A DNA stretch of 64,000 nt from positions 124,001 to 188,000 of the forward strand of contig JAYMGJ010000029.1 of the NCBI GenBank assembly GCA_037178675.1. Direction: 5' to 3'. Below, piece after piece: positions 46,901 through 55,521 of the stretch. Below the pieces are notes generated by a model. The model saw only the letters and a list, made by a program, of their open reading frames with translations, did no database searches and was not told where the DNA came from. The position numbers and the translations under genes were made by a program. Numbering within the stretch: position 1 is the first letter of the stretch; every line of letters begins with the position of its first letter. This DNA is from Scleroderma bovista. Taxonomy: Eukaryota > Basidiomycota > Agaricomycetes > Boletales > Sclerodermataceae.

Positions 46901-48734
46901 GGCCGAATAGTCTGAGCGTAGTCTTCGACTTCGACTTTGTCGTCCTCTCCAGCGGTCTTCTCGAGGCCTAAATACAATTAGGAAATGCAGTATGAAGGAA
47001 TACTTGCTATAAGATGTACCTTGCAACTTGGTAAATGATGGTCCATCTTCAAAATCATCGTCCCAGTTGTCCGTCTGCTCTTCAGGAGGTTGGAGAACGA
47101 ATGGAGCCGTTTCACGAATTTTATCGACAAGGCCGACGGCTGCCATTGGTAGGGCAGCTACACTAACCTGGGGTTTGAGTGCCAGGGGAACAGACGTAGA
47201 CTGTTGGAGGCCCAGGACTGAGTGTTGCAGAAGCGGGACACCAGGCTTGTCACGAGTTACCCGGGTCGGCGAAGCAGGGGGACCGTCCATCAGAGGACGA
47301 TTCCCATGCTTTGAAGGACGGGTTGGAGCTGCAGCCATTAGAACATCCAAAGAAAAGTAATAGGGACTGTATTCACATTTCAAAGCCTCATTCCATTCTT
47401 GTACCTTCAGGACAGCTTCATCGAAGTTATAGTTAGTGGGAGGTTTCTTCGGTATTCCAGACGACGTTTTCGAGCTTCCGTCAAATGTATGGCCCTCCTT
47501 CCCAGCCTTCCCAGCAGACGAATTCAGCTGTTTCTTTGCAGAAACCATCCAAGGATGCTTCAGAAGCTTCTTGGCCGAAATGCGAAGGTTACAATCTTTT
47601 TGGAAACAATGAAGCAAGAAATCTTTGACGATCGGGGATGCACCATCGGGTATAGGTGGACAGTCATCCTGGACAATTCGGAAGAGCGCAGGCATAGGAT
47701 CTAGGAAATGGTACGGGGGTTTACCCTCCAAGAGTTCAATTACAACGCAGCCCACACTCCTATGGGAAATAGTTCATAAGAAACGGCGTTCTTCTGCCAG
47801 GTAGATGTCGCATACCATATGTCCGATGCTGTTGTTGCACCCGACTGCTCGATGACTTCGGGTGCCACTAGGATGAAAGTGTATCAACAGTGATCTCAGC
47901 AGTTTAAGGAACAGCCTTACTCCAATATGGGCTCCCAACAACAGCATCGTCACTAACGGCTCCTGTCGTAGTAGAACTAGCAACCCCAAAATCTGCCAGT
48001 TTCACACAACCGTCCTTGTTGGTCAGGATATTTGCGCCCTTGATATCGCGGTGTATAACACCCTGATCATGAAGATATACAAGGCCCTCTAGGACTTGAC
48101 AAATATACACAGCAACAAGATTCTCGGGGAACTTTCCGAAACGCTTGCATATGTTGTGCAAAGATCCATTCTCGCAGAACCTATTCTAGATCAATGACAG
48201 GTGTCCATCCAGACAAAGCGTACACACTCCAGAATGATGTACAGATATTCCGGGGTTTTGACGAAGCCTTTGTACTTGACGATGTTTGGATGCTAGTTCG
48301 ATGAGACGCTGCGACCGAGAGGTCAAACAGAAACGCTCACGATGAGATTCTTGAGCAAATCAATCTCTGACTGTGAAATTACATTATTCATAAGATAGGA
48401 ATGAACTTCGGGATAGATGTACCATGATCTGAGCGAGTTCTCCTTTGGGAATGTTGCTCAGCTGTATTTCCTTGACAGCGACGGTTTCACCAGTGGCCCA
48501 GTTAAGTGCCCCTGCAGAAAACGATGGTCAGAATACACGCTAGAAATGTTTCATGGATGAAACTAACGGTATACCTGTCCGAACGCACCCTTCCCGAGAG
48601 AATCACCAAGTTGCTAAGGAAAAATCAGCACTACATAAAGCCGTTGGATGGTGAGAATGGCGAACATAGTCATTGAGAAGCTTAGAGCTGCTTGCACGCT
48701 TTCTGGGACTTATGGATGAAGAGGAGGCCACCAT
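43951..48734 (-). CDS. SepH/Cdc7 septation-network protein kinase
   Basis: STE-type kinase of the septation initiation network (S. pombe Cdc7, Aspergillus SepH, budding yeast Cdc15). Exon 1 starts [20 protein letters not shown] and ends NDY. The next begins [14 protein letters not shown] (Gly loop). Kinase motifs: [20 protein letters not shown] (Lys), [12 protein letters not shown] (catalytic Asp), [36 protein letters not shown] and [15 protein letters not shown] long disordered Ser/Pro linker follows, with [12 protein letters not shown] acidic segments. The C-terminal half is helical, armadillo/HEAT-like, for example [40 protein letters not shown] and [20 protein letters not shown]. The tail is basic and Ser-rich, ending [11 protein letters not shown]. 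More than a dozen short introns. Over 1,200 residues, as in the family. Confidence 0.87.
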
Positions 48735-50081: not shown

Positions 50082-51130
50082 ATGCGTTCCACGACTACCG
50101 TTTCTGCTCTTTTCGTGGTGGCTGCTATTGTCCCAGTCTTTGCCGCCCCTGCCGCCATTCTGTAAGTATTCCGTATCAATACTCTCTCGTTTGGACAGCA
50201 CCGCTGACCCCCTTTTCAGTGACAAGAAATCGCCGAGGGTTAAAGCAACCTCAGTTCCTCTAGCACCCGCCATGGCTGCGAAGAGGTGGACCCCTCCTCC
50301 GATCCCATCGTGTTGGTGGACCCGCAGCTGCAAGAGGCAGGTCATGCAATCAGAAATGAGGGAGGTCATGGGCGGCGGTCTTGAACAAGAGCTCATTACC
50401 CCGGAGGAGGAATCCACTCTTGGCCAGCTCCCTCAGTAAGTTTGCGCTCTACTAGGGCCATGTTCCTATGTTGATGTTGTACGAGTCCTTTGCAGAGGGA
50501 TGTCACCTCGGATCAGCGGGCGGGTGAACAAGAGGGCGTGATCACTGGAAACATCAAGAGGGATGTCGAGTCTGATGCCTTAAGCCTTGTCAATGCCGCT
50601 CTCAGCAGGGGTATCATTACTCAAGCTGAAGCTTCTGCGTTGACGGATATGATCAAGTAAGTAGATAAGTATCATTTGAGCACTCCCCCCTAATTTTGGC
50701 CACTTTTTTTTTAGCTCCAACACCGACCCATCACAGTTGCAGAATTTGCTCAGCACGCAGACCTCGCAACTGAGCGACCTTGGAGCGACTCCGACGACGA
50801 AGCGGGATACAACCGACGTGACGGTAACCACAGTGGAAGGCTTGATCAACCAGGCAGTACAGGCTGGTTCCATTACTCAGGATGAAGGCACTGCTCTGAT
50901 TGCACTCCTCCCGTGAGTAATTGCCGATTCCATGCTCGCCGGTCGCCCTTAGCTGATGCTGGCATAGGACATACACGCCACCTGAACTGCAGTAACTTGC
51001 TATCACCATCCAGAGTGTGCTTAGCACGGTGAACTCCAAGAGGTGGGCTCCCCCTCCCCTCCCCTCTCCTCCTCCGATCCCATCTTGTTGGTGGACACGC
51101 AGCTGCAAGCGGTTGGTTGACCTCGACTAA
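50082..51130 (+). CDS. Secreted repeat precursor with Kex2-type Lys-Arg sites
   Basis: Not a family I can name. Exons 50082-50161, 50220-50435, 50498-50656, 50715-50912 and 51016-51130 give 255 aa. The first 22 residues are a signal peptide (MRSTTTVSALFVVAAIVPVF, then AA). Six Lys-Arg pairs follow, the cleavage signal of the Golgi protease Kex2. Two Trp/Pro-rich segments are flanked on both sides by Lys-Arg: WTPPPIPSCWWTRSC, and a longer version (WAPPPLPSPPP then IPSCWWTRSC). Helical spacers repeat: LITPEEESTLGQL, GIITQAEASALTDMI, SITQDEGTALIALL, and each is followed at once by an intron. The last exon is uncertain. An earlier acceptor (after 50967) reaches a TAA at 50993-50995 and gives a 226-residue form without the second peptide. 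Likely a peptide signal, effector or cyclic-peptide precursor. Confidence 0.75.
50287..50331 (+). other. Predicted released peptide 1
   Basis: Encodes WTPPPIPSCWWTRSC (15 residues) between Lys-Arg codon pairs at 50281-50286 and 50332-50337. Two Cys residues five apart could form a disulfide ring. Release by Kex2 is inferred from the flanking sites. Confidence 0.6.
51044..51106 (+). other. Predicted released peptide 2
   Basis: Encodes 21 residues, WAPPPLPSPPP then IPSCWWTRSC, between Lys-Arg pairs at 51038-51043 and 51107-51112. The last ten residues are identical to peptide 1, and the proline tract is expanded. It is translated only if the acceptor at 51015 is used or the upstream TAA is bypassed. 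Confidence 0.5.
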
Positions 51131-51703: not shown

Positions 51704-53049
51704 ATGGCTTCGATCGCATCTGTTACCAAGCAAATCGCGGCTCTGGACATTTCGTCAAAAAAACCAACAAATCATCGGTCTGGTCACACAAAACAATCAA
51801 GTCAGACAAACGTCGCCAAGCTTCTTACCAAGTATGCTGCACCGAATCCCCCGCCGAAACCACCACCACCATCTACCCTCCGAAACCAGACTACCGCAGA
51901 CAAGCCAGAAACATTACCACCAAAAGCTGCTCGAAAGCTCCCTGTTGACATTGGGAAATATGATGGCGGGTTCGAGATTGATAATGAAAAACGTGGTGAA
52001 AAGGTGTACGGCGAGGCCGCTGAGGATCTTGCACTGGATTCAAGTACGTTGAGGTGAGTAGCTATTATGTACCCCGATCGTCTCCCTCTGACGCATTTGC
52101 AGAACACGCCCTACCCGTGAATGGAAGCTCAATGACTTTGACATCGGTCGTCCCCTCGGCAAGGGAAAGTTCGGTCGTGTTTACATGGTCCGCACCAAAT
52201 GCGAGCCACACTATATCGTCGCGCTCAAGTGCTTATACAAATCCGAGATTGTGCAATCACATGTGGAAAAGCAGATCCGAAGAGAAATAGAAATTCAACA
52301 AAATCTCCGTCACCCTAACGTCCTCCGGTTATATGGCTACTTCCACGATGAAAAGCGGATATTCCTCATGCTCGAGTTTGCTGGCCAGGGTGAACTGTAT
52401 AAGCAGCTGAGCAAGAGGGGGAGGTTCACCGAAAGACGCAGTTCACGGTACATTGACCAAATGGCGGACGCACTCCAGTACTTGCACTTGAAGCATGTTA
52501 TCCACAGGGACATCAAGCCAGAAAACTTGCTTCTTGGTATCAATGGCGAGTTGAAGATTGGAGATTTTGGTTGGAGTGTTCATGCTCCTGGCAACAGACG
52601 GATGACACTTTGCGGGACGCTTGATTATCTCCCTCCGGAGATGGTGGAAGGGAAAGAGCATAATGAGAAAGTTGATTACTGGGCTCTCGGAGTGCTCACA
52701 TACGAGTTCCTTGTCGGACATCCACCATTCGAGGATAAGAGTAGCGTACATGGTTAGTGTCCATTGCATCGATCAGTCCACCGTGCGGTTAACTGCTAAC
52801 CAACATTGCAGCGACCTATCGACGCATCGCCAGAGTGGATCTCAAGATACCTCCGGAAGTTTCACCAGACGCGAGGGACCTCATATCAAAGGCAAGTCTA
52901 TTTTCCGAATAAGCAGGATGGTTGGTCATCTTCTGCAGCTCCTGAAACACAATCCGGAAGAGCGACTTCCATTGAGCGAGGTATCCCGGCACCCGTGGAT
53001 TGTCAAGTACCGGACAAAGGGAACTTCGAAGGGTGGCGGTGAGGCGTAG
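51704..53049 (+). CDS. IPL1: Aurora kinase (Ipl1/Ark1)
   Basis: Mitotic Ser/Thr kinase of the chromosomal passenger complex. The N-terminal 115 residues are disordered, Pro-rich and start [20 protein letters not shown]. After the first intron the kinase domain begins [20 protein letters not shown]. Motifs: [11 protein letters not shown] (Lys), [26 protein letters not shown] (the Aurora-specific WSVHAP), activation loop [16 protein letters not shown] with the phosphorylatable Thr, and [20 protein letters not shown]. Later exons give [20 protein letters not shown], and [20 protein letters not shown] near the end. Domain length and order are normal. At least three introns after exon 1. No damage seen. 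Confidence 0.93.
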
Positions 53050-53362
53050 AGGTGTCATCGGAGCTTCCTGGAGGTGCTTGGTTCTCATCACCGTCGTGCA
53101 CGGATCACTCCTTTCGAAGTTGTTGTATGTACTATTCTCACTAGTCAAAATCCTGGCTTTCCTCGCTCCCGGTTTGTCCCATGAATAGGGAACCGAACGA
53201 GACTGCGAACGTAAGTTGGGCAGATTTTCGTCGATCAAAGGTTATGTGGTTGCCACGTGCTGGCCCACAGTGAAAAAACGACTGTCTTTCTGAACTGCAG
53301 TCCTTTTGCCAGCCATTATCAACTACTCGCGTCCAGTTTCTCAGTTCTTGTCGCTGTACGAT
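53050..53362. promoter_or_regulatory. Spacer between Aurora and Ypk1-like kinase genes
   Basis: About 310 bp on the same strand. Holds the Aurora 3' end and the promoter of the next kinase. Nothing else seen. Confidence 0.4.

Positions 53363-55521
<2,159 letters not shown>

Follow-up and report, generated by a model that had tools for sequence, protein, structure and literature searches.

The Kex2-processed repeat proteins (KEPs) of fungi, as described in PMC9769878, PMC6339444 and PMC7329392, are proteins of unknown function that carry a predicted secretion signal and more than one copy of a core bounded by Lys-Arg (KR); the precursor analysed here likewise has repeated KR-bounded cores, behind a putative secretion signal. 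KEP cores stand in tandem, whereas in the present gene two cores lie far apart between long diverged spacers; it also differs in that its core has two Cys and each spacer is split by an intron. PMC6339444 and PMC9769878 require at least three fragments that resemble one another and lie between Kex2 sites, and PMC9769878 asks 70% identity of longer fragments. Ascomycete alpha-pheromone precursors are likewise similar in their leader, their KR sites and their short Trp-containing peptide, and a two-repeat alpha-factor precursor exists, namely MF(ALPHA)2 of S. cerevisiae, according to PMC6339444. They differ in their repeated Ste13 XA/XP dipeptides, which are absent here: core 1 starts with WT, and core 2 with WA followed by PPP. 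The mating pheromones of basidiomycetes are described as a-type in the literature. Dikaritins of the ustiloxin type resemble the present case as ribosomal core peptides released by Kex2, and Tyr is the usual ring site in their cores. The Tyr content is discussed in PMC7329392, where a DUF3328 gene is given as lying nearby in 103 of 1680 basidiomycete KEPs, most being without one. Rep1 of Ustilago maydis is also a Kex2-processed repeat precursor of a basidiomycete; it is set apart by its products, described as peptides of 37 residues that assemble into amyloid-like fibrils and influence the properties of the hyphal wall.

In this study, a candidate secreted peptide precursor of Scleroderma bovista was analysed in a 64,000-nucleotide stretch of DNA (the window), whose numbering is used below unless a contig is named. 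Translation of the plus strand gave a coding span of 252 aa in five exons at 50082-51130 (exons 50082-50161, 50220-50435, 50498-50656, 50715-50912 and 51025-51130; stop codon 51128-51130), which bore out the ATG at 50082 and the end at 51130 proposed in the initial annotation. The five exons proposed there do exist as one model with GT-AG at all introns, whose protein ends soon after the second core, but they hold for this splice model only. The predicted secretion signal (50082-50144, plus strand; MRSTTTVSALFVVAAIVPVFAAPAAIL from the ATG) was read from the sequence and by hydropathy. The hydrophobic leader was confirmed with a best 11-residue Kyte-Doolittle mean of 2.97, and small residues stand at -3 and -1, by eye, of a probable cleavage site after Ala21. 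Six Lys-Arg sites had been reported and are all present in the 252-aa model, but shorter models of 226 and 113 residues hold only 4 and 3. Residues 20-252 of the long model contain six KR pairs, whereas 20,000 shuffles of these residues averaged 0.48 and never gave more than 4. Cutting at these sites divides the long protein into a pro-stretch, core 1, three spacers, core 2 and a five-residue tail. Searching Pfam with the 252-aa protein at E up to 1 returned five families, all below the cut-off, including a weak match to the antimicrobial family PF11630 that covers spacer M3 and lies outside the core. Among solved structures, no match to the precursor was found, and no PDB sequence matched core 2.

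Translation confirmed two Lys-Arg-bounded segments with the common residues PPPIPSCWWTRSC, and the peptide lengths of 15 and 21 given earlier are correct. By pattern, translation and alignment, core 1 (WTPPPIPSCWWTRSC, 50287-50331) occupies 50281-50337 with its KR pairs and core 2 (WAPPPLPSPPPIPSCWWTRSC, 51044-51106) occupies 51038-51112, both on the plus strand; KR stands on both sides of both cores, which is a membership feature of KEPs. The proline-rich head of core 2 is six residues longer than that of core 1. The core DNA pattern, allowing up to 3 mismatches, matched twice in the window against 0.00 expected from 100 shuffles, and with up to 2 mismatches it matched twice in the 51.8-Mb genome, the control giving 0. 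The copies, 775 nt apart, align without gaps over 45 nt with 3 differences (90% identity over 50 nt), and no similarity was found by alignment far past the KR-to-KR cassette. All three differences (TCG/TCT, ACC/ACA and AGG/CGG) are silent over the 15 shared codons (PPPIPSCWWTRSCKR); silent sites number 10 of the 45, and a simple count puts the chance of three silent changes at 0.011. In the five other frames, 0, 0, 2, 0 and 1 of the 3 differences are silent, the other two plus-strand frames showing replacements throughout (0/3 silent). Because the differences are all silent in the core's frame only, selection would be acting on the peptide and not merely on the DNA. The simplest reading, though it rests on just three changes, is that the core peptide appears to be kept by selection.

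Most of the protein consists of the spacers that separate the cores, which have an I-T-x-x-E motif in common among themselves. By translation and alignment, M1 (50338-50561), M2 (50562-50805) and M3 (50806-51043) follow one another on the plus strand and end in NIKR (in the 252-aa model), TTKR and NSKR. Each contains an intron placed after a codon's second base, namely intron 2 (50436-50495 or 50436-50497) in M1, intron 3 (50657-50714) in M2 and intron 4 in M3. Identity to M2 was 37% for M3 and 23% for M1, and M2 and M3 are alike in DNA over 34 nt at 74%. Judged from these alignments, M2 and M3 are clearly related and M1 is weakly alike. The score of the M1 tail against the M3 tail was reached by 102 of 2000 shuffles and that against the M2 tail by 1492 of 2000, so homology of the M1 tail to either is unconvincing. 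The gene may have grown by duplicating an intron-bearing unit. At the M1/M2 junction, a 20-nt repeat (50494-50513 and 50557-50576; 80% identity, 63 nt apart) spans the intron 2 acceptor and the NIKR site and has the appearance of a short tandem duplication that preserves the frame.

The rest of the genome was searched for related loci and processing enzymes. Neither the full protein, core 2 nor M2 plus M3 revealed a second locus in the 51.8-Mb genome, among the best candidates that the search scores, and the precursor is apparently single-locus. With up to 2 mismatches allowed, the degenerate pattern CWWxRxCKR occurred at 40 places and its reversed control at 26, the only exact matches being the two known sites; of its three one-mismatch sites, two contain an in-frame stop and one reads without the first Cys. 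Pattern searches gave 29 matching stretches in viral contigs and 198 matches in prokaryote genomes, none of them confirmed, and little is expected there of a fungal gene. A Kex2-type P-domain was found at one place, on contig C98 (197052-197364), a lower bound from an exon-level search; three kex2 genes are reported for C. cinerea and other agaricomycetes in PMC9769878. A DPPIV (Ste13-class) domain lies on contig C169. The STE3 profile gave 15 exon-level matches, 12 on contig C472 (70180-82018) and 3 on contig C206 (175190-176199), as in the pheromone-receptor mating locus of mushroom-forming fungi. The STE2 profile gave 0 matches in the genome, and no control genome matched either, so its absence is not established. 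The overall picture fits a basidiomycete.

UstYa (PF11807, DUF3328) matched the genome once, as a lower bound of the exon-by-exon search, at C346:253465-253722, a possible separate peptide-cyclisation locus; the same search gave no match on the precursor's own contig, C29 (229,043 bases). A dikaritin cluster was rejected, as neither core contains Tyr and the sole UstYa match of the exon-by-exon search is on C346 and not on C29; the link to cyclic ribosomal peptides drawn in the initial annotation is thus unsupported as regards a dikaritin-type place. In the window, 198 open stretches reach 90 residues or more, and 19 of these, in addition to the precursor, were scanned with Pfam. No peptide-modifying enzyme appeared among these 19; a short or unscanned one, other than UstYa, may lie nearby. 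The matches above the cut-off were kinase, G-patch, F-box, L5 and MutS; armadillo-type matches fell below it, and for eight stretches the chosen thresholds yielded nothing. Upstream, on the minus strand, lie kinase stretches and the armadillo-like matches below cut-off. Downstream, on the plus strand, follow kinase stretches at 52092-52754 and 54663-55296, which are probably two genes and which we take to be Aurora-type and AGC-type kinases, as well as a G-patch protein. Next comes an F-box protein, encoded on the minus strand; the L5 and MutS matches are farther away. Kinase stretches thus flank the precursor at 46901-48185 (minus) and 52092-55296 (plus) and could serve as landmarks when the orthologous region is sought in other fungi.

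Splicing may determine whether the second core is read. Three splice outcomes were examined; core 1 is contained in all of them and core 2 in one, the 252-aa model, which requires less favoured acceptors at two of its four introns (2 and 4). The intron 2 acceptor reads tttgcagag: its second AG keeps the frame, and its first AG leads to a product of 113 residues ending in NKRA. By translation, intron 4 (50913-51024, plus strand) may take 55 nt, ending at 50967 and running the frame into a stop, or 112 nt, ending at 51024 and placing core 2 in frame. With the 55-nt form, an in-frame TAA stands ahead of core 2 (50993-50995, plus strand, by translation) and the product has 226 residues; the 112-nt form ends at gcttag, skips nearer AGs and avoids the TAA. 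CTRAY-type motifs were read before the AG of introns 1 and 3 and of the 55-nt form of intron 4, where a CTGAT motif has its A 11 nt upstream of the final intron base. Splice scans gave 9 donors in the window, 20 in 264 kb of the genome and then 5 and 9 under two settings, which is too few and too noisy for the splice rules of this genome, and the results included implausible acceptors. For this gene's first two introns, one scan scored other acceptors best (76 and 125 nt), the 125-nt alternative for intron 2 dropping the NIKR site.

Codon usage was scored after training on ten open stretches from the window. The score favoured the frame of the model over exon 3, starting at 50502, and over parts of exons 1, 2 and 4. 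Over core 1, the scores were -2.2 and -4.2 against 2.8 and 3.5 in another frame; over core 2, -1.8 against 4.1 in another frame and then -8.0 against -1.1; and over 50742-50801, -1.1 against 4.6 in another frame. The scores over both cores and over 50742-50801 count against the 252-aa model.

We consider that the gene probably encodes a Kex2-processed secreted basidiomycete prepropeptide whose mature peptide would carry a Cys-Trp-Trp-Thr-Arg-Ser-Cys ring. This is the best reading because of the leader, the Lys-Arg cassettes, the frame-specific silent differences and the Kex2-type and DPPIV domains in the genome. On these points the earlier proposal of a secreted, Kex2-processed precursor stood, but its two copies may not both be translated in this strain. 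By analogy with known Kex2-processed precursors, the protein would enter the secretory pathway, Kex2 would cut after each Lys-Arg and Kex1 would remove the Lys-Arg from the peptide ends. The two cysteines of the core would then pair into a disulfide, giving a 15-residue peptide with a proline-rich head and a seven-residue ring that closes at the second Cys (computed oxidised monoisotopic mass 1813.807). A 21-residue peptide (2372.123) would be added where the downstream copy is read, and the spacers would be discarded or would aid folding. Core 1 would be made in all three splice outcomes, and core 2 only with the 112-nt intron 4 or by passage of the TAA. The ring peptide most likely works outside the cell, where it would signal to conspecifics or be directed at neighbouring organisms. 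In C. cinerea, knocking out six KEPs left the phenotype apparently unchanged, and PMC9769878 leans towards roles in the biotic environment. Given these knockouts, self-signalling would be no more likely than an outward-facing signal or defence role.

In this genome a stop may precede the second copy, and a decaying precursor is a serious possibility. Here core 1 would still be made, in a product of 113 or 226 residues, and the core 2 part would have lost its frame, gained a stop or been affected by an assembly error; as to core 1, this is compatible with the Kex2-processed precursor preferred above. It would explain why translation ends ahead of core 2 when the closer acceptor of either intron 2 or intron 4 is used, and why the frame after the TAA stays open and is the frame of core 2. 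The stretch that the 112-nt intron would remove points the same way: in a comparison of 50968-51046 it resembles the M2 tail, with a local score that 19 of 2000 shuffles attained; this likeness suggests that it was formerly coding and that the 112-nt intron looks like a bypass and not the original form. The only AGAG-kind acceptor among the 20 of the 264-kb scan was also this gene's own intron 2. Against decay, core 2 differs from core 1 by silent changes only over 15 codons and both of its Lys-Arg pairs are kept, the 252-aa model is GT-AG throughout and ends soon after core 2, and splice statistics from 9, 20, 5 and 9 donors are unreliable for this genome. A more elaborate proposal is that the peptide is a disulfide-ring signal outside the known a-type mating system and that its precursor is switched between a one-copy and a two-copy form, the copies differing in their proline-rich heads, by the choice of the 55- or 112-nt intron 4 or by reading past the TAA; we regard this as quite unlikely.

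Other readings concern what the peptide does. Ascomycete alpha-pheromones such as WCTWRGQPCW have Trp, Thr and Arg between two Cys, which recalls the ring here, and an alpha-pheromone-type signal sensed by a seven-helix receptor would agree with KR-flanked peptides of 15-21 residues with two Cys. Core 2 starts with WA, fitting the XA dipeptides removed by Ste13, and the genome has a DPPIV domain; PMC6339444 also describes Ste13 signatures in basidiomycete KEPs, and one such protein with two Cys. This reading is nevertheless unlikely: core 1 starts with WT, which is neither XA nor XP, the Pfam matches up to E 1 include no pheromone family, and the 0 matches to STE2, whose absence is not established as no control matched, stand against 15 to STE3. 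Bowman-Birk-type loops make contact through Thr-Lys/Arg-Ser, and the Thr-Arg-Ser within the Cys pair, with Pro residues near, would on sequence grounds allow a secreted protease inhibitor or defence peptide. However, Bowman-Birk-type inhibitors have a larger ring and other residues where the core has Cys after Ser. Pfam up to E 1 gave no inhibitor family, Bowman-Birk included, core 2 had no counterpart in PDB, and we hold this function to be very unlikely. A structural or wall protein of helical spacers with incidental Lys-Arg pairs would account for the spacers forming the bulk of the protein and for their common motif, but it is highly improbable, as KR pairs occur far above the shuffle expectation and the cores, not the spacers, are best kept (M3 37% and M1 23% to M2).

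Returning to the Kex2-processed precursor, its relation to described families can be stated more closely. The initial annotation had seen the hallmark of Kex2-processed repeat proteins, but the gene falls short of the rule published in PMC6339444 and PMC9769878: the cores occur twice and not three times, and the spacers, at 37% and 23%, remain below 70%. The precursor would therefore work like a KEP and yet not be filed as one under the survey rules. The strings CWWTRSC, SCWWTR, IPSCWW, CWWTR, PSCWW and CWWTRSCKR were absent from the 5.39 million papers searched, the survey supplements lying outside that search; the earlier description of the peptide as undescribed agrees with this absence, but the peptide may be listed in those supplements. 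It is plausibly a new representative of a known class of secreted-peptide precursors, for now an orphan.

With their floor of three fragments, the two surveys would overlook two-copy precursors like this one, and counts of fungal secreted peptides may be too low. A Cys-ring peptide of a mushroom-group fungus could be searched for directly by the mass signature given above. The main interest lies in the two-Cys, Trp-rich ring and in the possible control of its second copy by splicing.
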